The notes beneath the pieces are model-generated. The model had not been told where the DNA came from. It did no database searches and saw only the letters and a program-made list of their open reading frames with translations. This document shows positions 548 to 12,003 of a stretch of 64,000 nucleotides of DNA, in pieces. This stretch comes from Pseudoxanthomonas kaohsiungensis (lineage in GTDB: Bacteria; Pseudomonadota; Gammaproteobacteria; Xanthomonadales; Xanthomonadaceae): assembly GCF_010211765.1 (NCBI RefSeq), contig NZ_PDWO01000002.1, positions 1 through 64,000 on the forward strand, given 5' to 3'. Positions within the stretch are counted from its first letter, which is position 1; each line of letters begins with the position of its first letter. A program made the position numbers and the translations under genes.

Positions 548-928
548 TCAGCGCACCTCTTCCATCAGGCCCACCAGGTTGCCGTCGGGATCGCGCAGGA
601 ACGCGGCCCACAGCTCGTGGTCGGGCATCCGCGCGGCCAGCTGCGGTTCGCGTTCGGCGGTGGCACCGCGCGCCAGCATCGCCGCATGGGTGGCGGCGAT
701 GTCGTGCACGCGGAAGTACAGGATCGAATTGGCGCCCACCGCACCTGCGCCCTGCGGCGTGGTCAGCATGATCCGCACGCCGTCGGCGTCCAGGAACGCC
801 AGGCCGGGCCCGGCGCGGAACAGGAACGCCAGGCCGAGCACGTCGCGGTAGAAGCCGAGCGCGGCGTCGACGTCGGCGACGGTGATCGCGACCTGGCGGA
901 TTCCCTGCACCCGATGTCCCGATTCCAT
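548..928 (-). CDS. VOC (glyoxalase/bleomycin-resistance fold) family protein
   Basis: A 126-residue single-domain protein of the vicinal-oxygen-chelate superfamily, which covers glyoxalases, dioxygenases and resistance proteins. The N-terminal half has the typical opening IRQVAITVADVDAALGFYRDVLGL. The C-terminal half ends in HELWAAFLRDPDGNLVGLMEEVR, whose 'F-x-DPDGN' turn and final Glu are standard family marks. Candidate metal ligands are an early Gln/His, the His of DHELW and the terminal Glu. The substrate cannot be told from sequence. The ATG at 928 is preceded by GGGGAGGCGGG, a good ribosome site, which decides the start. Confidence 0.85.
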   Translation of the reverse strand: MESGHRVQGIRQVAITVADVDAALGFYRDVLGLAFLFRAGPGLAFLDADGVRIMLTTPQGAGAVGANSILYFRVHDIAATHAAMLARGATAEREPQLAARMPDHELWAAFLRDPDGNLVGLMEEVR

Positions 929-993
929 GCCCGCCTCCCCGCGCCTGCGCGCCGTGATCCCGGGCGGATGATGCCAGCCAGGGCCGGACCGGC

Positions 994-1656
994 CTAGAGC
1001 TTGAACAGCGGCTGCAGCATGCGCGCCATCCAGCCGGAGAAGCGCAGCGGCGCGTCGGTGGCGGCCACGCAGATGCACGGCACGCCGGGCACGGTGACCG
1101 GCTGGTGCTCCACGTCCGAATCCAGGTCGGCGACGTCGCCGGGGGCGAAGTGCCCGATCGCATCGCGATAGGCGCCGCGCAGGATCAGGGTCAGCTCGCT
1201 GCCACCGTGGGTGTGCATCGGCACGCTGCGGCCGGGGGCGGTGCGCAGCAGCATCAGGTGGCCGTCGTCGACCCGGTCGGCGCGCACGTAATGGATGCCC
1301 GGACCGATCATCCGCCAGCGCAGGTCCGAGTAGCGGCGGCCGAAGTACGGCTGCAGCGTGCGCGGCAACGCATCGTCCGCCGCCGTCGCCGCCACCGGGT
1401 GTGGCACCGGCCGCGGCGCGGGCGCGCCCTCGGCCAGCACGCGTGCACGCAGCCGCTCGCGGGCGTCGTCCGGCAACGGTGCGCCCTCCTGCTGGACGAG
1501 CAGGTGGCCGCCGATGCGGTCGGCCAGGGCGAGCTGGCCGCGGCATTCGTCGCAGACGTCCAGGTGCGCGGCGACGACCGCGGCGAACGCCTCGGGCAGC
1601 GCGCCGGCCGAAAACGCCAGCAGGGTGGATGCGTCGGGATGGTGGTTCGGGGTCAT
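994..1656 (-). CDS. chrR: ChrR-type zinc anti-sigma factor with C-terminal cupin
   Basis: A 220-residue cytoplasmic anti-sigma factor that should hold the adjacent ECF sigma factor inactive until singlet oxygen or another oxidant appears. The N-terminal zinc site is present as H6, H31, C35 and C38 (…HLDVCDEC), the same residue numbers I recall for Rhodobacter sphaeroides ChrR. A C-terminal cupin (about 110-200) has H148, H150, E154 and H184, matching the ChrR cupin zinc ligands with a constant offset of seven. Its ATG overlaps the sigma-factor stop as ATGA, so the two are translationally coupled. Family and partner are clear. The signal is inferred from the family. Confidence 0.93.
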   Translation of the reverse strand: MTPNHHPDASTLLAFSAGALPEAFAAVVAAHLDVCDECRGQLALADRIGGHLLVQQEGAPLPDDARERLRARVLAEGAPAPRPVPHPVAATAADDALPRTLQPYFGRRYSDLRWRMIGPGIHYVRADRVDDGHLMLLRTAPGRSVPMHTHGGSELTLILRGAYRDAIGHFAPGDVADLDSDVEHQPVTVPGVPCICVAATDAPLRFSGWMARMLQPLFKL

Positions 1657-2279
1657 GGCGCGGCCCCCAGTCCGGCCTTCAATCGCGCGAAGGCGCGGCG
1701 CAGGGTGGATTTGACCGAGCCCAGCGGCATGCCGAGCTCGGCGGCGATCTCGCTGTGGCTGCGGGCTTCGAGGTAGGACATGCGGATCAGCCGGGCCTGC
1801 GCCGCCGGCAGGCTGCGGATGGCGCGGTCCAGGCCGGCATGGTCGGCGTAGTCGTCCGGCGAAACGCCCCACTCGTCGACCATCCAGGCCTCGTCGACCG
1901 GAACGGGTTCCGATTCGCGGTGCGCCTCGCGCCGCCGCGCATCGATCTGCAGGTTGCGGGCGATCCGGAACAGCCAGGTCGACAGGCTGGCGCGGGCGGG
2001 ATCGAACGCGGCGGCGCTGCGCCACAGCCGCAGCATCGATTCCTGGACCAGGTCGTCGGCCTGGGCGGCGGACACGCCGTGGCCGAGCAGGTAGCGCTTG
2101 AGCCGGGGAGCGTAGTGGTCGTGGATGCCGAGGAAGGCATCCATGTCCTGGCGCTCGGCCACCGCGCGCATCTGCGCGCTCCAGTAACCGGCATCGTCCG
2201 GCAGGGCGGGGCGTTGGCTGGACACGCGCTGGGGCGCCGCTAGCGGCGTCACTTTCCTGGTGGCCGGATCTGTCGCCAT
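1653..2279 (-). CDS. rpoE: ECF sigma factor, RpoE type (ECF11, ChrR-controlled)
   Basis: A 208-residue extracytoplasmic-function sigma factor. Region 2 is at about residues 50-120, with QADDLVQESMLRLW and STWLFRIARNLQIDARRR. Region 4 is at about 150-203, ending in a helix-turn-helix (SHSEIAAELGMPLGSVKSTL). The start is the ATG at 2279; the 20-40 residues ahead of region 2 are not conserved-looking. A promoter of the form GGATCC-N18-TAGAGG lies 36 bases upstream and matches those of the facing operons, which implies autoregulation. It is followed by its anti-sigma gene in a four-base overlap. ECF11 members control singlet-oxygen responses, and the neighbouring lipid genes fit that. Confidence 0.93.
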   Translation of the reverse strand: MATDPATRKVTPLAAPQRVSSQRPALPDDAGYWSAQMRAVAERQDMDAFLGIHDHYAPRLKRYLLGHGVSAAQADDLVQESMLRLWRSAAAFDPARASLSTWLFRIARNLQIDARRREAHRESEPVPVDEAWMVDEWGVSPDDYADHAGLDRAIRSLPAAQARLIRMSYLEARSHSEIAAELGMPLGSVKSTLRRAFARLKAGLGAAP

Positions 2280-2314
2280 CTTACTCGGGTACACGCCGTT
2301 GCCGTCTTCTCCAA

Positions 2315-2344
2315 CCTCTACGCGCGAGCGGGCCCGATGGATCC
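2315..2344 (-). promoter_or_regulatory. ECF11-type promoter of rpoE-chrR
   Basis: On the minus strand the sequence reads GGATCC, an 18-base spacer, then TAGAGG. The -35 box is at 2339-2344 and the -10 box at 2315-2320. The consensus reported for the R. sphaeroides RpoE-ChrR system is close to TGATCC-N18-TAAGA. The first half of the spacer (ATCGGGCCCGC) nearly repeats the spacer of the desaturase promoter at 9113-9142. The sigma factor start codon follows 36 bases after the -10 box. Confidence 0.65.
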
Positions 2345-2353
2345 CCGCCGGCC

Positions 2354-2914
2354 TCACCGCAGCGGCGGCCGCGGCGCCGGCTCCGGCCACTGCTGCGGCA
2401 CCCGGCGCAGGCGCGAGGTGTCGTAGCCCATCGCCGCCACTTCGGCGACCAGTTGCCGGTAGCGCGACTCGGGCAGGGTCGGCGTGCGCGCCATGATCCA
2501 GACGTAGTCGCGCTTGTTGCGCGCGACGATGGTGTCGGAATAGTCGTCGGCCAGCGCGGCGATGATGTACTCGGCCTTGACCGGCCAGACGAACTGCATG
2601 CCCCAGACCGCGTTGCCGGTGCCTTCGCGGACGAAGCCGGTCGGGGTCATCGTCTCCAGCTCGCCGGCAGGCCCGTCCTTGCGGAAGCGGAATACCGTGT
2701 CGATGCGGCCATCCGGACCGCGGGAGTAGGTTTCCACCGCGTTGTGGGCACCGCGCTCCATCGCCGTGGGGATCGAGGCGATCACGTACCAGTCGCCCAT
2801 GAAGCGGTCGAGGTCGACCTGTTCGACCGGCGGGATGGGGCGGGCGCCGCCCTGGCCGGCGCAGGCGGCCAGCAGGCAGGTCGACATCAGCCAGGCCAGG
2901 GCGGTGGCGCGCAT
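2354..2914 (-). CDS. blc: Bacterial lipocalin lipoprotein (Blc)
   Basis: A 186-residue outer-membrane lipoprotein of the Blc lipocalin family, which binds or carries lipids. A signal peptide ends in the lipobox LLAAC (Cys18). The lipocalin start motif is present as RFMGDWYVIASIP, and later strands hold KAEYIIAALADDYSDTIVA and RDYVWIMARTPTL, both typical of Blc. It is the last gene of the seven-gene lipid operon, ten bases after the methyltransferase stop. Blc proteins are generally linked to membrane damage or lysophospholipid handling, which fits an operon that alters fatty acids. Assignment to the family is firm. The ligand is unknown. Confidence 0.92.
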   Translation of the reverse strand: MRATALAWLMSTCLLAACAGQGGARPIPPVEQVDLDRFMGDWYVIASIPTAMERGAHNAVETYSRGPDGRIDTVFRFRKDGPAGELETMTPTGFVREGTGNAVWGMQFVWPVKAEYIIAALADDYSDTIVARNKRDYVWIMARTPTLPESRYRQLVAEVAAMGYDTSRLRRVPQQWPEPAPRPPLR

Positions 2915-2924
2915 GTTGTGCTCC

Positions 2925-4013
2925 TCAGGTGCGGGGTGCGAACAGGTAGTGGGCGACCAGCCACTGCTGGCCGTCCTCGTAGCCGAACAGTTCGGCGCAG
3001 GCCATCCAGAACATCCGCCAGCGCTGGAACCACAGCCGCGCCGCGGCATCGCCGCCGTAGGCCTGCGCCAGGATCGGCAGCAAGGCGTCGCGATGCCGGT
3101 CCTGGTTGGCCAGCCAGGCGTCGGCGGTGCGCTGGTAGTGGGTGCCGTCGACCAGCCAGCGCCGCTCCAGCACCAGGTCACGCTGCAGGTGCAGCAGCGT
3201 GTCGGCCGCCGGCATCAGCCCACCGGTGAAGAAATGCCGGCCCATCCAGTTGTCCTGGCCCTCGGTGTCGAACGGATAGGCGGCCAGGCGGTGGACGAAG
3301 ATGTGCACGAACAGCCGGCCGTCCGCGCGCAGCCAGCGCGCGATGCGCGCCAGCAGCGCGGCGTGGTTGCTCACGTGCTCGAACATCTCTACCGACACGC
3401 AGCGGTCGAAGCTGCCGGCCGGCAGCTCGAGTGCGTTCACGTCGCAGGTCACGACCCGCACGTTGTCCAGGCCTTCGGCGGCGCAGCGCGCTTCGATCCA
3501 GGCGCGCTGCGAGTGCGAATTCGATACCGCGGTGATGCGCGCGCCGGGGTAGCGCCGCGCCATCCACAGCGTCAGCGATCCCCAGCCGCAGCCCAGCTCG
3601 AGGATGTCCATCCCGTCGGCCAGGCCGGCGCGCTGCCCGTAGAGCGCCAGCATCGCCTCCTCGGCCTCGGCCAGGGTGCTGTCCGGACGCTCGAACAGGC
3701 AGGCCGAATACTTCAGCGCCGGCCCCAGGCAGCGCTCGAAGAACGCGGCCGGTACCTCGTAATGCTGCGCGTTGGCCGCCTCGGTGTGGACCGCCAGCGG
3801 CATCCGCCCCAACGCCTCGACCAGCCGCTGGTGCCGCGCCTGCTGGGCCGCGGCACCGCCGGCGAGGCATTCCCGCAGCCGCTGCGCGCACAGGCGGCGG
3901 ATGCCGAGGCGGACGGCCGCGTCCGGCAGCCAGCCGCGCTCGGCCAGGCCGGCCAGGCCGGGTTCGGGGGCATGCGCGTGCGGCATGCGTGCGCTCGGTA
4001 TCGCCAGGCTCAT
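2925..4013 (-). CDS. SAM-dependent methyltransferase, cyclopropane-synthase-like
   Basis: A 362-residue class I methyltransferase. The SAM-binding motif is ILELGCGWGSLTLWMARRYPG (about 138-158), followed by SVEMFEHVSNH, the equivalent of the acidic motif near the active site in the Cfa family. It is related to, but distinct from, the Cfa-like gene two places upstream: the N-terminal region is shorter and the C-terminal part (YGGDAAARLWFQRWRMFWMACAELF) is of a type found in singlet-oxygen/light operons. Its ATG overlaps the DUF1295 stop by four bases. It probably methylates an unsaturated fatty acyl chain, but the product is not known. Confidence 0.85.
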   Translation of the reverse strand: MSLAIPSARMPHAHAPEPGLAGLAERGWLPDAAVRLGIRRLCAQRLRECLAGGAAAQQARHQRLVEALGRMPLAVHTEAANAQHYEVPAAFFERCLGPALKYSACLFERPDSTLAEAEEAMLALYGQRAGLADGMDILELGCGWGSLTLWMARRYPGARITAVSNSHSQRAWIEARCAAEGLDNVRVVTCDVNALELPAGSFDRCVSVEMFEHVSNHAALLARIARWLRADGRLFVHIFVHRLAAYPFDTEGQDNWMGRHFFTGGLMPAADTLLHLQRDLVLERRWLVDGTHYQRTADAWLANQDRHRDALLPILAQAYGGDAAARLWFQRWRMFWMACAELFGYEDGQQWLVAHYLFAPRT

Positions 4014-4810
4014 GCCTGGGACCTCCTGCGGTCCGGATCGCGTGGAAACCAGGGGAACAGCATCGGGGTGCGCTCGCGGTAGCGCCGGTAGTCGTCCCCG
4101 CGGGTGCGCAGGGCCTGGGCTTCGGTCCAGGGGATGCCGCTGAGGTAGCGCAGGAACAGGTACATCAGCACCGGCCCGGCCCAGCTCAGCAGGTGCAGCG
4201 GCGAGCCCACCGAGAGGAACACGTAGGCGAACCAGTGCAGCCACTCGAAGAAGTAGTTCGGATGCCGCGAGAACCGCCACAGCCCGGTGTCGCAGGTGCG
4301 TCCGCGGTTGCGCGGATCGGCGCGGAAGCGCGCCAGCTGGCGGTCGGCGACGGCCTCGCCGCCCACCGCCAGCAGCCACGCCGCCACGCCGAGCGCGGTC
4401 CATGCGCTGAAGTCCCCGGCCGGGTTGGCGGCCACGGCGGCGAACGGCAGTGCGAACAGCAGCACCAGCAGCGCCTGGCCGAGGAAGAACAGCAGGAATG
4501 CGGGCCCGCTATCCTTCCAGTGCGCACGCAGGTGGTGGTAGCGGCCGTCCTCGGCTTCGCCGCGGACGCGCCGCCACAGGTGCATGGCCAGTCGCAGCGC
4601 CCAGACGCCGCCGAGGACGGCCAGCAGTATCCGTGGCAACACCGCGCCCGGCCCGATGGCCGCCAGGAACACGGCGGCCAGGCCCATGCCGGTGGCCCAG
4701 AGCACGTCGACGATGCCGGCGTTGCGGTGCGCGCGCTCCCACCGCCACCCGCCCAGCATCAGCGCCGCCATTGCCAACGCCAGCCACCCGAACGCCTGCA
4801 GCAGGTCCAT
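4010..4810 (-). CDS. DUF1295 integral membrane protein (steroid 5-alpha-reductase-like)
   Basis: A 266-residue protein with about six or seven hydrophobic segments. The C-terminal half contains CDTGLWRFSRHPNYFFEW, a signature shared with the steroid 5-alpha-reductase/isoprenylcysteine methyltransferase fold and the DUF1295 family. Such enzymes reduce or methylate lipid-like substrates in the membrane. The gene starts at an ATG overlapping the Cfa-like stop by one base (TGATG) and its own stop overlaps the next start by four bases, so it is co-translated with the lipid-modifying enzymes. A role as a reductase acting on the modified acyl chain is a guess from fold and context. Confidence 0.85.
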   Translation of the reverse strand: MDLLQAFGWLALAMAALMLGGWRWERAHRNAGIVDVLWATGMGLAAVFLAAIGPGAVLPRILLAVLGGVWALRLAMHLWRRVRGEAEDGRYHHLRAHWKDSGPAFLLFFLGQALLVLLFALPFAAVAANPAGDFSAWTALGVAAWLLAVGGEAVADRQLARFRADPRNRGRTCDTGLWRFSRHPNYFFEWLHWFAYVFLSVGSPLHLLSWAGPVLMYLFLRYLSGIPWTEAQALRTRGDDYRRYRERTPMLFPWFPRDPDRRRSQA

Positions 4811-6084
4811 CAGGCGACTCCTGCGACCCAGCGGTCGCCATGGCCCGGGCGCGCGCCCGGGCGCGCGAACAGCAGGTGGCTGACCCCGATCGAGCGCTCG
4901 AGGAAGCCGCCTTCGCAGTAGGCCAGGTAGAAATCCCACAGGCGCAGGAAGCGCTCGTCGTAGCCCAGGCCGCGCGCCTGGTCACGCGCGGCGAGGAAGC
5001 GCGAGCGCCAGGCGTTGAGCGTGCGCGCGTACGACAGGCCGAAATCCTCCAGGTGCACCAGCTGCAGGTCGCCGGCGCGCGCGCTGGCGCCGAGCATCCC
5101 GTGGACCGAGGGAATGAAGCTGCCGGGGAAGATGTGCCGCTTGATGAAGTCGACCGAACGCAGCGCCTGCTCGTAGCGGTGGCCTTCGATCGTGATCGCC
5201 TGCACCAGCGCCAGCCCGTCGTCCTCCAGCAGCGCCGCCAGCTTGCCGAAGTACGCTTCCTGGTAGCGCGCACCGATGGCCTCGATCATCTCGATCGAGA
5301 CGACCCGGTCGAAGCGGCCCTCCAGGTCGCGGTAGTCGCGGAGCAGGACGGTGACGCGGTCCTGCAGCCCGGCCTCGGCCACGCGCTCGCTGGCCAGGGC
5401 GTGCTGCTCGCGGGAAATGGTGGTGGTGGTGACGTGGCAGCCGTAGTGGCGCGCGGCGTGCAGCGCCAGCCCGCCCCAGCCGGTGCCCACTTCCACCACC
5501 CGCAGGCCTTCGCGCAGGCCGAGCTTGCGGCAGACGGCATCGAGCTTGCGGGTCGAAGCGCTTTCCAGCGTGTCGTCGCCGGCCCACAGCGCCGAGGAGT
5601 ACATCAGGTCGGGCGACAGGAACAGGCCGAAGAAGTCGTTGCCCAGGTCGTAGTGCGCGGCGATGTTGCGGCGCGCGCCGGCGCGGGTGTTGCCGCGCAA
5701 CGCATGCCAGGCCCGCAACGCGGCCGAGGCCGGGCGCGCGCTGCCCGACTCCATCGTGTCGAGCAGGTCGCGGTTGCGCAGCAGCAGGCGCACCAGCGCG
5801 ACCGGGTCGTCGCTGTGCCACAGCCCGTCGCCGTACGCCTCGCCGGCGGCGACGCTGCCGCCGAGCGCCAGCGCGCGGTAGAAGCGCGGATCGGCGACGC
5901 GGACATGCACCGGATGCGCGCCATCCGCCACGCCAAGCCGCTGCCGCCCCCATGCATCCTCGAGCAGCAGCTCGCCGTGCCGCAGCGGCGCCAGCGAACG
6001 CAGCACGCGCTGGCGCAGCCAGGCGTCGAGCGCGGTCGGCGCGGCGGCATCCACGGCCGGGACGGACAGGACGGGTGGACTCAT
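4810..6084 (-). CDS. Cyclopropane-fatty-acyl-phospholipid synthase family enzyme
   Basis: A 424-residue Cfa-family enzyme, close to the usual 380-430 length. Phrases typical of Cfa are in order: [27 protein letters not shown], the SAM motif [25 protein letters not shown], and [14 protein letters not shown]. The family adds a methylene or methyl group from SAM to a cis double bond of membrane lipids. In the R. sphaeroides singlet-oxygen regulon a Cfa homologue is a known target, and a related methylase makes the precursor of furan fatty acids. Which of these products is made here cannot be read from sequence. It is the central gene of the seven-gene operon. Confidence 0.92.
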
Positions 6085-6860
6085 CGACGAACTCCTTCGG
6101 CCGCGCGCAGGCGCGGATGGTCGTGGAACGGCACGCGCTTGAGCCACAGCCGCAGCGCCTGCCAGTGGATGGCGCCGATCACCTGCGCGGTCATCAGCGG
6201 ATAGCGCCACAGCAGCCGCGCCAGCGCCGGCCCGTCGAGCGGGCGCCGGTGCAGGCTCAGGCTGGCGTCGAACTCGCGCACCGGGCCGTCGAGTGCCCGC
6301 ATGTACACGCCCAGGCGCTCGCCCGGCACGCTGAAGCGCCAGTCGTAGCCGCGGTCCATGGCCATGAACGGCGACACGTGGAAGGCCTTGTCGAAGCGCC
6401 AGCGCAGCAGGCCGCCGCGGCGCTGCGCCTGGTCCGCGGGCAGCACGTAGGCGTGGCGCTCGCCCCACGGGGTGTTGGTCACCTCCGCCACCACGGCGCG
6501 CAGCGCATCGCCGGTGTCGTGGCAGTAGTAGAACGTGACCGGGTTGAACACGTAGCCGGCGTAGCGCGGATGGCAGAGCATGCGCACCGCCCCGCCGGGG
6601 CGCTCGCCGGTGGCCTGTTCGACCCGGTCCAGCACCGCGTCCTTCAGCGGGGTGCACGCCGGCCCCAGGTAGTCGCTGCGCCGCCACTCGCCCAGGTTGC
6701 GGCGGTCGACCGACCACAGCCAGCGCCGCTCGAACACCCGCTCGACCTCGTCCAGGTCCAGGTACAGCTGCGCGATCCGGTAACGGAAGGCATGCGCGCG
6801 CGGCAGGTGGCGGCGGTGCACCACCCGGCCTTCGTAGAGCGCGCTGTGCACGGGGCTCAT
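6081..6860 (-). CDS. DUF1365 family protein
   Basis: A 259-residue protein of the DUF1365 family, recognised by the opening [23 protein letters not shown] and the internal [20 protein letters not shown] and [11 protein letters not shown]. The biochemical function is not established. The family almost always sits between the COG2907 FAD oxidoreductase and a Cfa-like methyltransferase, as here, so it is presumed to act in the same lipid modification. The start ATG overlaps the stop of the oxidoreductase by four bases and its own stop overlaps the Cfa-like start by four bases. No signal peptide is seen. Confidence 0.9.
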
Positions 6861-8119
6861 GCGACCACCTCCAGGCGCCGGGTGGCGCCGGCCTCGATCT
6901 GCGCAGCCACCTGCTCGCCGCTGCGGATGCCGTCCTCGTGGAAGCCCCAGCCCCAGTAGGCACCGGCGAACCAGGTCCGGTGCAGGCCCTGGATCTCGTG
7001 CGCGCGGGCACGCGCGCTCACCGAGGCGGCGGTGTAGACCGGATGCGCGTAGCGCATGCGCTGCAGCACCCGCGACGGGTCGATCGCCCCGGTGCGGTTG
7101 AGCGTAACCACGAACGGCTCGCGCGTGTCCAGGCCCTGCAGCAGGCTCATGCAGTAGCTCACCGTGCACGGCGCCGCCGGATCGCCCGGCACGTAGGCGT
7201 TCCATGCCGCCCAGGCCTTGCGCCGGCGCGGCAGCAGCCGGGCGTCCGTGTGCAGGATCACATCGTTCTCCTGGTAGGGCAGCGCACCGAGGATCGCGCG
7301 CTCGCGCGGGTCCGGCCGTTCCAGCAGGGCCAGTGCCTGGTCGCTGTGGCAGGCCAGCACCACGTGGTCGAAGTTCTCGATGCCGTCCGCATGCAGCAGC
7401 TGCACGCCATGGTCGTGGCGGCGCACCGCGTGCACCGGCGTGCGCAGCCGTTCCTGCACGCGCCAGCGCGCGCGCAGCCGTTCCACGTAGGTCGCCGATC
7501 CACCCTCGACCACGCGCCACTGCGGCCGGCCGCGCACCTGCAGCATCTGGTGGTTGGCCATGAACGCGACCAGGTAGCGGACCGGGAAGTCCAGGATCCG
7601 GGATGGCGGCGACGACCACAGCGCCGAGGCCATCGGCACCAGATGGTCGTCGCGGAAGGCGTCGCCGTAGCCGTTCAGGGCCAGGTAGCCGCCGAGCGTC
7701 GGCCCCGGGCCGGGCCCGTCGAGCAGCGCCGGCGCCTCCCGGTAGAACCGGACCAGGTCCGCGACCATGCCAAGGAAGCGCGGCGAGACCAGGTTGCGGC
7801 GCTGGCAGAACAGCGCGTCGAGCGTCGTGGCGTTGTATTCCAGGCCATCGGCGCGGTGCACCGAGAAGCTCATGGTCGTCGGCCGCGAGGTCACGCCCAG
7901 CTCTTCGAACAGCGCCGCCAGCCGCGGGTAGTGGACCGGGTTGTGGACGATGAAGCCGGTGTCCACCCGCCAGTCGCGACCCTCGTGCCGGACCGCGTGG
8001 GTATGGGTATGGCCGCCGAAGCGGTCGTCGCGCTCGAACAGCACGACCTCGTGGCGCTGCGACAGCCGCCATGCCGCCGACAGGCCGGCGATGCCCGAAC
8101 CGACCACCGCGATCCTCAT
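6857..8119 (-). CDS. NAD/FAD-binding oxidoreductase (COG2907-like)
   Basis: A 420-residue flavoprotein of the amine-oxidase/desaturase superfamily. The FAD-binding motif is at the very N-terminus, [19 protein letters not shown], followed by [11 protein letters not shown], both typical of this group. The C-terminus [18 protein letters not shown] closes the flavin site. Related proteins are carotenoid and fatty-acid desaturases. In this operon, between a membrane desaturase and two methyltransferases, it is a good candidate for oxidising the acyl chain. Start and stop overlap both neighbours by four bases. The electron acceptor and exact substrate are unknown. Confidence 0.9.
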
Positions 8120-9081
8120 CGCGCGGCCGCCTTGGCCAGCACCCACGCCGGCACCGGCCGCAGGTCCCAGACCAGCCCGAGCGCCTGCATCAGGCGCAGT
8201 CCGTACCAGGTCAGGTCCAGCTCGTACCAGCGGAAGCCCTGGCGGGCCGATCCGGGGTAGAAGTGGTGGTTGTTGTGCCAGCCCTCGCCGAAGGTGAGCA
8301 GCGCGAGCCAGGCGTTGTTGCGGCTGTCGTCGCGCGTGTCGAAGCGGCGCCGGCCGTAGCGATGCGCCAGCGAATTGATGGTGACGGTGGCGTGGAACAG
8401 GACCACCGTCGAGACGAAGAAGCCCCACACCAGCATCTGCGGGCCGTCGGTGCCCAGGCCGGGGGCGACGCGCTGCAGCACCCACCCCAAGCCGTAGGTG
8501 GCGGCGGCCAGCAGCAGCGGCACGACGACGTCGTAGCGGTCCAGCCAGCGCAATTCGGGATAGGCGGCCAGGTCCTGGACGCGACGGTAGTCGGTGGCGA
8601 ACGCCTCCTCGGTGAGGAACCAGCCGACATGGCTCCAGAGGAAGCCGCGCTCGCGCGGCGAATGCGGATCGGCCGCCGTGTCGGCATGGCGATGGTGGTG
8701 CCGGTGATGCGCCGCCCACCACAAGGGACCGCGCTGCACCGCCGAGGCACCCAGCGCCGCGAACAGCACCTGCAGCGGGCGCGAGGTGCGGAACGCGCGG
8801 TGCGAGAAGTAGCGGTGGTAGAAGCCGGTGATGGCGAACATGCGCACCACGTAGAGCAGCGTCGCCACCGCCACCGCCACCGGCGAAACCCCGACCCAGG
8901 CCACGCCCAGGCAGCCGGCATGCAGGGCGATGAACGGCACCGCGCGCGGCCAGTCGATGCGATGCCCCACCAGCGGCTCGTCGACGCGCGCCGGCGCGCC
9001 CGTGACCCAGCGGCGCAGCCACGCGGCGCGCCCCGGCACTGGTCGTACCGTGGAAGCAGGAGGAGGCGTGGGGTTGTGCAT
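8116..9081 (-). CDS. Membrane acyl-CoA/fatty acid desaturase
   Basis: A 321-residue integral-membrane di-iron desaturase. The three histidine boxes are visible in order: HRYFSHRAF (about 90), [12 protein letters not shown] (about 124) and [17 protein letters not shown] (about 265). Hydrophobic segments flank them. The family introduces a cis double bond, usually delta-9, into acyl-CoA or lipid-bound chains. As the first gene of the operon it would supply the double bond that the later methyltransferases need. The ATG at 9081 lies 32 bases downstream of the -10 box of an ECF-type promoter. Confidence 0.93.
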
Positions 9082-9112
9082 GGGCGGTAGGCGTCACGGC
9101 CGGCTGTTCACT

Positions 9113-9142
9113 TGCATACGTGCGTGAGGGCCGGATGGATCC
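9113..9142 (-). promoter_or_regulatory. ECF11-type promoter of the desaturase operon
   Basis: On the minus strand: GGATCC at 9137-9142, an 18-base spacer, and TATGCA at 9113-9118. The context GGGATCCATCCGGCCC is almost identical to GGGATCCATCGGGCCC at the rpoE promoter. The spacing and the -35 box are the same, so both should be read by the RpoE encoded at 1653-2279. It overlaps no gene and would drive the seven-gene operon down to the lipocalin. Confidence 0.7.
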
Positions 9143-9193
9143 CGGCCACGCGATCCCGTCGCCGATGTGCGCGCGATGTGCACGTGGCGTGAT

Positions 9194-9223
9194 GAATCCG
9201 AACCGCCACATCCGGCGTAACAG
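9194..9223 (+). promoter_or_regulatory. ECF11-type promoter of the fasciclin gene
   Basis: On the plus strand: GAATCC at 9194-9199 (context TGATGAATCC), an 18-base spacer, then TAACAG at 9218-9223. The -35 box differs from the other two by one base. The fasciclin ATG at 9272 follows with a leader of about 40 bases. It is divergent from the desaturase promoter. It is weaker evidence than the two matching promoters, but the spacing is exactly the same. Confidence 0.5.
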
Positions 9224-9271
9224 ACCTCGCTGCCGATGCAGCCTCCCTTCCATCCGCCACGAGGCACCACC

Positions 9272-9820
9272 ATGAATTCCCATCGCATCGCCCTGGCTCT
9301 TTCGCTCGCCCTGATCGCGCCGCTGGCCCCCACCGCCAACGCCGGCGCCGCCAGTGCCGCCGCCGCGCCGGCCAAGCAGTCGACCGTGGTCGACGTCGCC
9401 GTCGGCTCGCCCGACCACACCACCCTCGTCGCCGCGGTCAAGGCCGCGGGCCTGGCCGGCACGCTGTCGTCGGCGGGCCCGTTCACCGTCTTCGGGCCGA
9501 CCAACGCCGCGTTCGACGCGCTGCCCGCCGGCACCGTCGACACCCTGCTCAAGCCCGAGAGCAAGGCCACGCTCACCGGCGTGCTGACCTACCACGTGGT
9601 GCCCGGCAAGGTCGACGCCGCCACCCTGGTTTCGAAGATCAAGGCCGGTGGCGGCAAGGCCGAACTGGCCACCGTGCAGGGCGGCAAGCTGGTCGCGAGC
9701 CTCGACGGCAATCGCGTACTGCTCACCGATGCCAAGGGCGGGAAGGCCAGCGTGACCGCCACCGACCTCGCCGCCGGCAATGGCGTCGTGCATGTCGTCG
9801 ACCGCGTGCTGATGCCCTGA
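9272..9820 (+). CDS. Secreted fasciclin (FAS1) domain protein
   Basis: A 182-residue exported protein with one FAS1 domain. The signal peptide is MNSHRIALALSLALIAPLAPTANA, followed by an Ala/Lys linker. The FAS1 H1 motif is FTVFGPTNAAFDALPAGTVDTLL (about 75-97) and H2 is LTYHVVPGKVDAATL. The C-terminus GNGVVHVVDRVLMP is typical. FAS1 proteins act in adhesion or surface interactions. The start is the ATG at 9272 after GAGGCACCACC. A possible upstream ATG at 9236 would place extra residues before a perfectly normal signal peptide. The ECF-type promoter upstream suggests induction with the lipid operon. Confidence 0.92.
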   Translation: MNSHRIALALSLALIAPLAPTANAGAASAAAAPAKQSTVVDVAVGSPDHTTLVAAVKAAGLAGTLSSAGPFTVFGPTNAAFDALPAGTVDTLLKPESKATLTGVLTYHVVPGKVDAATLVSKIKAGGGKAELATVQGGKLVASLDGNRVLLTDAKGGKASVTATDLAAGNGVVHVVDRVLMP

Positions 9821-9911
9821 TCCCAACCGTCCCCCGCGTTGGCGCGGTGCCGTGGCCCGGTCCACGGCATCGCGCCGCAACCGCATGCACCACCCACCAG
9901 GAGAAAGCGTC

Positions 9912-10691
9912 ATGAACAAGCTGCTGCTCTGCACCGCGCTCTGTGCGCTGGCTTCCCCCGCCCTGGCCGCTCCCGAGAGCGGTCGCTTCTCCATGTCCGT
10001 GCTCGGCGGCACCGACACGCCGCTCAGCGGCGACGTGCACCGCGGCGCGACCGTGGACGTGCCCGACCTGGGCCCGCTCAATCCCGCGCTGGCCGGCGTC
10101 GATGCGCAGCTGCGCATCCAGTCGCGCGGCCACGACCAGATCTATGGCACGGCCATGTCGCTGGGCCTGGAGGTGGGCTATGGACTGAGCGACCGGAGCG
10201 AAGTGTTCCTCCAGGCCCGCCAGATGAGCGCCGATGACGGCCGCGTGCGCGTCGGCGCCGCCTACGTGCCCGCGCTGGACACCGAGCTCGACGTCTTCGG
10301 CCACTTCTCCGGCTACGACGCCTACACGTTCGAGTTCGGCTACCGGCATTTCTTCGGCGAGTCGGGCTGGGCCCGGCCGTTCGTGGCGGCGCGGCTGGGC
10401 GCGACCGAGACCGACGCGATCAAGGCCACGTTCGAGATTCCCGCCGCGGCGATCACGATCCCGGACGCGCCGTTCTTCGAGAAGGCCTGGGCGGTGAGCG
10501 GCGGCGTCGAAGCCGGCGTGCAGATCCCGTTCACCGAGCGCTTCAGCATGACCCTGACCGGCGGCGTGAACTACATCGGCGACCTGTCCGACGACGATTC
10601 CGCCATCGCCGGGCTCGGCCTGGCGGCGATCAACGACACCGGCAGCCGCGTGTCGATGCCGGTATCCATCACCGGACGCTGGGATTTCTGA
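9912..10691 (+). CDS. Outer-membrane beta-barrel protein, function unknown
   Basis: A 259-residue exported protein with signal peptide MNKLLLCTALCALASPALA. The mature part has the alternating pattern of a small barrel, including LGLEVGYGLSDRSEVFLQARQM, YTFEFGYRHFFGESGWARPFVAARLG and a terminal strand VSMPVSITGRWDF ending in Phe, as barrels recognised by BamA do. No specific family is recognised. It has its own good ribosome site (CAGGAGAAAGCGTC). It lies 91 bases after the fasciclin gene, with a hairpin (about 9848-9872) between them, so it may be co-transcribed from the same ECF-type promoter. Confidence 0.8.
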   Translation: MNKLLLCTALCALASPALAAPESGRFSMSVLGGTDTPLSGDVHRGATVDVPDLGPLNPALAGVDAQLRIQSRGHDQIYGTAMSLGLEVGYGLSDRSEVFLQARQMSADDGRVRVGAAYVPALDTELDVFGHFSGYDAYTFEFGYRHFFGESGWARPFVAARLGATETDAIKATFEIPAAAITIPDAPFFEKAWAVSGGVEAGVQIPFTERFSMTLTGGVNYIGDLSDDDSAIAGLGLAAINDTGSRVSMPVSITGRWDF

Positions 10692-10700
10692 AGCATGCGC

Positions 10701-10730
10701 GGCGGCGGGCAAGGCAACGAGCCCGCCGCC
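10701..10730 (+). terminator. Strong hairpin after the barrel gene
   Basis: A perfect ten-base stem, GGCGGCGGGC and GCCCGCCGCC, encloses a ten-base loop directly after the stop of the outer-membrane gene. There is no T tract, so it may be a Rho-assisted end or an RNA-stabilising stem rather than an intrinsic terminator. Confidence 0.45.
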
Positions 10731-10738
10731 GGCGCCCC

Positions 10739-10837
10739 GTAGAGCGGGGCTCGCCCCGCTGCCCTGGCCATGCAGGGCTCTCCTGGCCTGCGGGCGAGGA
10801 CATCAGACGCGAAGCAGCGGGGCGAGCCCCGCTCTAC
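10739..10837. repeat. Inverted pair of short GTAG-type REPs
   Basis: Two 22-base elements face each other: GTAGAGCGGGGCTCG… at 10739-10760 on the plus strand and its copy at 10816-10837 on the minus strand. Each is GTAG followed by a perfect GC-rich hairpin, the layout of the GTAG REP family known from Stenotrophomonas and relatives. A third copy lies at 37374-37395. The pair sits between the convergent barrel and sugar-dehydrogenase genes. Confidence 0.8.
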
Positions 10838-10878
10838 GGGCATCACCCGCGGGCGGCCACCAGGGCCGCCCGCGAACC

Positions 10879-12003
10879 TCACGAGCGCGGGTCGAGCCGG
10901 TACAGGCGGCCCTGGGCGCCCTTGCCGCCATCCTCCAGCAGCCAGATCGTGCCATCGGGCCCCTGCTCGACCTCGCGGATGCGCGTGCCCATGTCGAAGC
11001 GCTCGGCTTCGCGCGCCGAGGTGCCGTCGAACGCGACCCGCACCAGGCTCTGCGACGAGAGCCCGCCGATCAGGCCGCTGCCGTTCCAGCCCGGGTAGCG
11101 GTCGCCGTCGTAGATCACGAAGCCGGCCGGCGAGATCACCGGGGTCCAGGTGATGACCGGCGCGCGGTACTGCGGCTGGGTGTCGTGGTCGGGGATCGGG
11201 CGCCCGTCGTAATGGTCGCCGTTGGAGACGATCGGGTAGCCGTAGTTGGCGCCCTTCTCGATCAGGTTGAGCTCGTCGCCACCCTTGGGGCCCATCTCGT
11301 GCACCCACAAGCGGCCGTCGCGGTCGAAGTCGATCCCGAGCATGTTGCGATGGCCCAGCGACCACACCTGCGCGGCCACGTCGCCCTGGCCGGTGAAGGG
11401 ATTGCCGTCCGGCACGCTGCCATCGTCGCGCAGGCGCACGATCTTGCCCAGGTTGGAGGCCATGTCCTGCGCGGGGTCGAACTTCTGCCGCTCGCTGGAG
11501 GTGATCCAGAGCATGCCGTCGGCGTCGAAGGCGATGCGGTGGCCATAGTGGCCGTTGCCCGCGACCTTGGGCACCTGCCGCCAGACCACCTGCAGGTCCT
11601 CGAGCTCCTTGTCCTCGAGGTCCAGCTTCGCGCGCGCCACGGCGGCTCCGGAGGTGTTGCCGTCGCCGGCCTCGGCGTAGCTCAGGTAGACCCAGCCGTT
11701 GCTGGAAAACTGTGGATGCAGGACGACATCGGCGAAACCGCCCTGGCCGGCGTGCACGACTTCCGGTACGCGCCCGATGCGGGTGCGCTTGCCGGTGGCC
11801 ACGTCCTGCACCCAGAGGCGCCCGGCCTTCTCGGTGACCAGCAGGCGGCCATCGGGCAGGAAGGTCATCGCCCACGGCTCGTCGAAGCGCGCCACTTCGA
11901 CCGCCTCGAACGGCCTGTCCGCGGCCGCCGGCGCCTGCGCGGAGGCGACGGCACTGGCGACGAGGAGCGCGGATGCGAGCAGGCTGAGGGGAGAACGGCG
12001 CAT
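10879..12003 (-). CDS. PQQ-dependent sugar dehydrogenase (soluble, YliI/Gdh-B type)
   Basis: A 374-residue exported beta-propeller enzyme. Signal peptide MRRSPLSLLASALLVASAVASAQA. Typical motifs follow: DEPWAMTFLPDGRLLVTEKAGRL near 50-70, GHYGHRIAFDADGMLWITSSER, VWSLGHRNMLGIDFD, and LWVHEMGPKGGDELNLI. These are the catalytic His and cofactor loops of the glucose/sorbosone dehydrogenase family (aldose sugar dehydrogenase). It would oxidise aldoses in the periplasm with PQQ. No PQQ synthesis genes are in the window, so the cofactor may be imported. The substrate is not resolved by sequence. Confidence 0.9.
   Translation of the reverse strand: MRRSPLSLLASALLVASAVASAQAPAAADRPFEAVEVARFDEPWAMTFLPDGRLLVTEKAGRLWVQDVATGKRTRIGRVPEVVHAGQGGFADVVLHPQFSSNGWVYLSYAEAGDGNTSGAAVARAKLDLEDKELEDLQVVWRQVPKVAGNGHYGHRIAFDADGMLWITSSERQKFDPAQDMASNLGKIVRLRDDGSVPDGNPFTGQGDVAAQVWSLGHRNMLGIDFDRDGRLWVHEMGPKGGDELNLIEKGANYGYPIVSNGDHYDGRPIPDHDTQPQYRAPVITWTPVISPAGFVIYDGDRYPGWNGSGLIGGLSSQSLVRVAFDGTSAREAERFDMGTRIREVEQGPDGTIWLLEDGGKGAQGRLYRLDPRS

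Follow-up and report, generated by a model that had tools for sequence, protein, structure and literature searches.

The 64,000-nucleotide stretch of Pseudoxanthomonas kaohsiungensis DNA considered here (contig NZ_PDWO01000002.1 of RefSeq assembly GCF_010211765.1, positions 1 to 64,000; hereafter the window) carries the genes for a predicted extracytoplasmic function (ECF) sigma factor, RpoE, and its putative anti-sigma factor, ChrR. A lipid operon of seven minus-strand genes, which overlap by 1 to 4 bases apart from a 10 bp gap ahead of the lipocalin gene, points toward this pair, and divergent from the desaturase gene at the head of the operon is a gene for a FAS1 (fasciclin) protein. Each unit is preceded by the element ATCC-N16-CGTA (Table 1). 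Judged from sequence comparison, the locus is very probably an ECF11-type RpoE-ChrR module with a local regulon composed of three such units: rpoE-chrR, the lipid operon, and the FAS1 unit.

Table 1. Genes and predicted promoters of the rpoE-chrR locus, in window coordinates.
Feature	Position	Strand	Family	Details
chrR, zinc-binding anti-sigma factor with cupin-like domain	994..1656	-	TIGR02451	220 aa
rpoE, ECF sigma factor	1653..2279	-	PF04542, PF08281	208 aa
Predicted ECF promoter of rpoE-chrR	2315..2344	-		GGATCC 2344-2339; ATCC-N16-CGTA 2342-2319; CGTA end to rpoE ATG 39 bp
Lipocalin (Blc-like)	2354..2914	-	PF08212	last gene of operon, 74 bp ahead of rpoE
Second cyclopropane-synthase-like methyltransferase	2925..4013	-	PF02353	
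DUF1295 membrane protein	4010..4810	-	PF06966	
Cyclopropane-synthase-like methyltransferase	4810..6084	-	PF02353	candidate UfaM
DUF1365 protein	6081..6860	-	PF07103	candidate UfaO
FAD oxidoreductase	6857..8119	-	PF01593	candidate UfaD
Fatty acid desaturase	8116..9081	-	PF00487	321 aa; first gene of operon
Predicted ECF promoter of lipid operon	9113..9142	-		GGATCC 9142-9137; ATCC-N16-CGTA 9140-9117; CGTA end to desaturase ATG 35 bp
Predicted ECF promoter of FAS1	9194..9223	+		GAATCC; ATCC-N16-CGTA 9196-9219; CGTA end to FAS1 ATG 52 bp
FAS1 (fasciclin) protein	9272..9820	+	PF02469	182 aa; N-terminal signal-like segment, judged by eye
Beta-barrel-like protein	9912..10691	+		259 aa; follows FAS1 and is conserved next to it in G002 and G034

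Among the proteins of the PDB, the RpoE sequence is closest to Rhodobacter sphaeroides SigE (2q1z_A, E 6.4e-35; next 1.1e-15). The product of the adjacent chrR gene scores 187.8 bits against TIGR02451, for which the cut-off is 124.5, and when it is aligned to 2z2s the zinc motif HxxxCxxC, the Glu and His of the cupin domain, and the CxC motif all match (residue numbers E147, H177, C187 and C189 are given in PMC6852236). Together with ATCC-N16-CGTA at all three sites, these are the features expected of an ECF11 RpoE-ChrR system, a group name that we apply provisionally on the basis of ChrR linkage and the literature. The exact -35 sequence TGATCC of Pseudomonas and Shewanella is not found, as the three window sites read GGATCC, GGATCC and GAATCC.

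The occurrence of rpoE in the genus is patchy. Among 17 same-genus genomes searched, only that of the window (G000) and one other (G002) have the gene, and the match in a third, G010, is SigK-like. A scan of viral contigs with ChrR found no relative.

A preliminary description of the window had proposed three promoters with the pattern GRATCC-N18-TA, and their positions are correct: GGATCC-N18-TA occurs at 2344-2319 and 9142-9117 on the minus strand, and GAATCC-N18-TA at 9194-9219 on the plus strand. This pattern is found five times in the window, where 0.44 matches are expected and none of 100 shuffled sequences reaches five. The remaining two matches (15550 and 41769) have no CG ahead of the TA, and the core common to the three sites, ATCC-N16-CGTA, occurs exactly three times in the window and nowhere else in it. 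ATCC-N16-CGTA is a better and stronger common element than the pattern first proposed. The -35 sequence that had been described as shared by all three is indeed common to the rpoE and desaturase sites (GGGATCC), whereas the FAS1 site reads TGAATCC. Similarly, the flank GGGATCCATC(C/G)GGCCC is present at the rpoE and desaturase sites as described, but its longer form is not conserved, because the corresponding G002 sites read CGGGATCCGGTTGG for rpoE and GGGATCCATTCG for the desaturase. A simple scan of positions 900-11000 found no sigma-70-type promoter and yielded one terminator-like match, fewer than shuffled sequences give.

The same element emerges when relatives of rpoE are examined with no motif specified beforehand. 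We took the best 80 of 568 rpoE relatives, with flanks of up to 10 kb, and counted every pair of 4-mers separated by a gap of 14-23 nucleotides in the upstream regions. ATCC-N16-CGTA ranked first, occurring upstream of 46 of the 80 genes, and it was likewise the top dyad for the rpoE genes followed by chrR (46 of 54 within 300 bp). In 20 dinucleotide-shuffled sets, the best count reached by any dyad was 10, and ATCC-N16-CGTA itself reached at most 2. When 400 bp of upstream sequence are considered, the box precedes 48 of 54 ChrR-linked rpoE genes, 0 of 26 rpoE genes without ChrR, and 31 of 3223 background windows. The desaturase gene is also preceded by the box in 19 of the 20 loci having this gene in the fetched stretch (L061 is the sole locus without it), the distance from the nearest upstream box to the extrapolated start being 38 to 122 bp. 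In G002, all three sites are kept, the one before rpoE included; their spacers differ, and the DNA around them shows 75-81% identity. These comparisons directly show the box, its conservation across genomes, and its tendency to accompany ChrR-linked rpoE genes. The core and spacing of the window boxes match the consensus TGATCC-N16-CGTA published for Pseudomonas syringae (PMC5507510), and in Shewanella two transcription starts have been mapped downstream of TGATCC and CGTA (PMC4336711).

For a position weight matrix (PWM), we used 46 sites taken from other genomes, 27 of them at rpoE and 19 at desaturase genes, every one of which had been picked for having the core. Within the window, this matrix ranks the FAS1 site first (20.5), the rpoE site second (13.0) and the desaturase site third (11.1), with the next best match scoring 9.7.

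Several observations weigh against a single regulon read by RpoE. The box is absent from the 400 bp upstream of 6 of the 54 ChrR-linked rpoE genes, and, owing to their GGGATCC -35, the rpoE and desaturase sites have PWM scores below 20.3, the lowest in the training set. The support for the P. kaohsiungensis regulon consists of sequence comparison, and the inducing signal is uncertain because the rpoEc-chrR-chrA system of Stenotrophomonas maltophilia, as described in PMC11832516, affects superoxide tolerance and not singlet oxygen tolerance. Moreover, the FAS1 -35 (TGAATCC) differs from that of the rpoE and desaturase sites in G000 and G002 alike, and the genome of the window encodes 11 further Sigma70_r2 (sigma-70 region 2) proteins, so another sigma factor could read FAS1. 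The claim that one ECF sigma factor governs all three units has comparative evidence for each of them, with the FAS1 unit being the less firm member.

These last two points, along with the presence of the FAS1 box in 8 of 13 loci from relatives that have SigK but not RpoE-ChrR, favor an arrangement in which RpoE controls rpoE-chrR and the lipid operon while FAS1 depends on some other ECF sigma factor. We consider this arrangement unlikely. A TGAATCC box precedes some Rhodanobacter-type rpoE genes themselves (L056, L059, L060), and FAS1 adjoins the lipid operon in G000 and G002 and adjoins rpoE in a further genome, G034. Neither G000 nor G002 encodes a SigK-like protein of more than 42% identity, the best match to a related SigK in the window's genome being 40% identical and representing another ECF sigma factor, and neither gives a match to the anti-sigma factor RskA (E 1e-4). 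With neither part of a SigK-RskA system found in the window's genome, RpoE would be the likeliest reader of FAS1 there, despite the 11 other sigma-70 region 2 proteins.

MPT83 is a FAS1 protein. In the published MPT83-SigK-RskA cassette, an ECF sigma factor (ECF18/19, with RskA as its anti-sigma factor) controls the mpt83 gene, and the cassette is reported to be conserved in Gram-negative bacteria too (PMC7509140). The labels SigK and RskA used here are based on this cassette, on an RskA_C domain in the partner protein, and on SigK 4nqw as the nearest solved structure; the window's genome departs from the cassette in that RskA is not found. We surveyed FAS1 genes among the relatives, where 76 of 149 genomes matched, 30 loci were fetched, and the box count takes in 46 FAS1 loci (L183, with 38% identity and one internal stop, was left out). 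With the sigma classes set by thresholds of our own choosing, the FAS1 box occurs in 9 of the 13 loci whose genomes have RpoE-ChrR alone and in 8 of the 13 whose genomes have SigK alone; where both systems are present the count is 5 of 8, and where both are absent it is 1 of 12. The difference between genomes with either sigma factor and those with neither has a Fisher p value of 0.0017, a statistic that ignores relatedness; the genomes counted are not independent, and two of the boxes (L154 and L171) are identical. All 23 boxed FAS1 proteins fall within one clade of 32 rows (support 100/99), in which RpoE-only and SigK-only genomes are intermixed, although support for many of the inner branches is weak. 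Since 11 of the 12 loci whose genomes have neither sigma factor fall outside this clade, sigma content is confounded with clade membership. For the SigK genes themselves, the ATCC-N16-CGTA core lies within 300 bp upstream in 10 of 23 cases and ties with one GC-rich dyad, and the SigK box is thus less firmly derived than that of RpoE.

The -35 sequence upstream of rpoE correlates with a residue of the sigma factor. In a set of 50 ChrR-type rpoE genes, each preceded by a box (48 from the 80 loci, one from the window and one from G002), the motif GxVKSxxR[L/R] of sigma region 4 ends in Leu in 20 proteins, 18 of which have TGATCC, and in Arg in 30, none of which has TGATCC and 29 of which have a G two bases ahead of ATCC. 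The absence of TGATCC from the Arg-type relatives indicates that this -35 is a dialect and not a defining feature of ChrR-linked systems. The corresponding SigK motif likewise ends in RR. The Leu/Arg split largely follows phylogeny, so it is a correlation with the -35 dialect and does not amount to proof. We tentatively entertain, with somewhat less than even confidence, a reading in which one Lysobacterales FAS1 lineage is a portable target of either RpoE-ChrR or SigK-RskA via a single promoter dialect. On this reading, the ChrR-linked sigma factor of the order would have moved from TGATCC to TGCATCC/GGGATCC as the last residue of the sigma-4 motif changed from Leu to Arg, in a convergence on the dialect of SigK, and RpoE would serve FAS1 in the window's genus, where SigK-RskA is lacking. 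Such a two-sigma arrangement fits the data and rests on correlated, unevenly sampled genomes. If true, sharing of FAS1 between two ECF systems through one dialect would constitute a natural exchange of regulators with a candidate specificity residue. Two findings are possibly new: a FAS1 lineage of the Lysobacterales that is boxed in RpoE-ChrR genomes and in genomes having SigK/RskA instead, and the correspondence of the -35 dialect to one residue of the sigma-4 helix. Among the papers listed by searches on parts of this reading, no title or opening lines report FAS1 common to two sigma systems via a converged dialect.

Returning to the RpoE-ChrR regulon, we infer from these comparisons a scheme for RpoE dependence in P. 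kaohsiungensis that takes in the inducing signal, the lipid product, the role of FAS1, and transcriptional read-through. ChrR, through its zinc-binding anti-sigma and cupin domains, would hold RpoE until oxidative membrane stress releases it, whereupon RpoE would direct RNA polymerase to ATCC-N16-CGTA promoters. The box before rpoE-chrR would provide positive autoregulation, and the two others would bring under RpoE the seven-gene membrane-lipid operon, with its candidate UfaD, UfaO and UfaM homologues, and the divergent unit encoding FAS1 and, if the putative co-transcription holds, probably the beta-barrel-like protein. Since the lipid operon points toward rpoE-chrR, read-through from it may add feedback. 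The locus would then represent a clean, testable local oxidative-stress sigma regulon in the Lysobacteraceae, linking membrane-lipid remodelling with FAS1 and its conserved beta-barrel-like partner.

Regulons of this kind are already known in other bacteria, of which the locus is a well-supported local example. A core regulon of rpoE-chrR and furan-fatty-acid genes has been described (PMC6852236). In R. sphaeroides, the ECF11 pair sigmaE-ChrR, common to both organisms, governs its own expression, furan-fatty-acid genes, and the Beta-Ig-H3/fasciclin gene RSP_1409, which is listed as induced in the RpoE regulon table with log2 changes of 2.8 and 4.5 (PMC6852236, PMC7074977). A fasciclin protein of Azospirillum has also been placed under RpoE-ChrR (Dubey 2021, as cited in PMC10949492). 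Hence the inclusion of a FAS1 protein, which the preliminary description had offered as an extension of the ECF11 pattern, has precedents. The window differs from R. sphaeroides in that its -35 is not TGATCC, its three units lie in one 9 kb block, and no photolyase or rpoHII gene is seen among the promoter-like matches examined. P. syringae PSPTO_1043 and Shewanella RpoE2 share the core and spacing of the box; their -35 dialect differs, and their listed targets include phrB, katG and pgpD (PMC5507510, PMC4336711).

Control of the lipid cluster is not new either, since dependence on a homologous sigma factor has already been shown by RNA-seq in S. maltophilia. There, expression of the orthologous cluster, which has nine genes, increases 165- to 697-fold on deletion of chrR and reverts when rpoEc is also deleted (one sequencing run; PMC11832516). 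Like the window, the smlt2375-smlt2367 locus combines an ECF sigma factor and ChrR with a desaturase, an FAD oxidoreductase, two cyclopropane fatty acid (CFA) synthases and a lipocalin, the strong induction on ChrR loss being an observation made in S. maltophilia. The two loci differ in layout, as the nine S. maltophilia genes are divergent from rpoEc, and rpoEc-chrR is joined there by a third gene, chrA, whereas the seven genes of the window run toward rpoE and FAS1 is divergent from the desaturase gene.

The products of the window operon may point to a particular lipid. The R. sphaeroides enzymes UfaD, an NAD/FAD protein, and UfaO, which has a DUF1365 domain, make furan fatty acids together with UfaM (PMC7380195). 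Genes for a CFA-like methyltransferase, an FAD desaturase and a DUF1365 protein stand together in the window, as judged by domains and adjacency, and the same three kinds of gene lie beside rpoE in 11 more distant loci. Because these protein kinds are adjacent, we regard the lipid operon as a candidate furan-fatty-acid operon.

Outside the window, the pattern GRATCC-N18-TA matches 53 times in the genome and a reversed-pattern control 12 times, and this abundance shows that the pattern alone is not very specific. The stricter GNATCC-N16-CGTA has 19 matches (8 + 11; reversed control, 2) and TGATCC-N16-CGTA has 2; in G002, GNATCC-N16-CGTA matches 17 times (control, 2). Of the 19, just four can be paired with one of the 17 in G002: the three sites in the window and a further one that is coding-like. 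Of the 16 sites beyond the window's three, 12 lie in coding-like frames when judged with a codon model built from ten genes of the window, and none of the four others has a G002 counterpart. The preliminary description had suggested that hits might be enriched near photolyase, catalase or carotenoid genes; none was recognised behind the four non-coding-like matches, this search having been confined to strict, non-coding-like sites. One site (L133) is located 143 bp ahead of a gene that we take to be phasin-like and was rejected because it has no counterpart among the G002 matches, and another (L135) overlaps the beginning of a long open reading frame. A third, GCATCC-N16-CGTA at G000:C22:224902 (L132), precedes folE in the window's genome. 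This site drew interest since folE2 belongs to the RpoE regulon of R. sphaeroides (PMC7074977), but a box is present at just 2 of 28 folE loci, the window's genome supplying one of the two, and folE was rejected as a regulon member.

The abundance of looser matches, the low scores of two window sites, and the unconserved folE site would also suit a view of the boxes as chance matches or vestiges in genes that use ordinary promoters, yet this is highly improbable given recovery of the motif with no prior model in 46 of 54 upstream regions, retention of all three sites in G002 and of the desaturase box in 19 of 20 loci, and the lack of a sigma-70-type site in the scanned region.

The FAS1 unit itself includes a second gene, missed in the preliminary description, whose 259-amino-acid product is encoded after FAS1 in G002 too (73%) and beside FAS1 in G034 (71%). 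No Pfam or NCBIfam family matches this protein above the cut-off. Its structural model consists mostly of strands, with one of five models usable (mean predicted local distance difference test score, pLDDT, of 65.8; others 27-31), and the closest folds are outer-membrane barrels (best template modeling score by query length, 0.50). Based on this model, the protein is a probable outer-membrane partner of FAS1. In S. maltophilia EA1, the lipid cluster has a FAS1 gene directly behind its lipocalin gene (L068), and the FAS1 locus of this strain (L169) has a box of its own.

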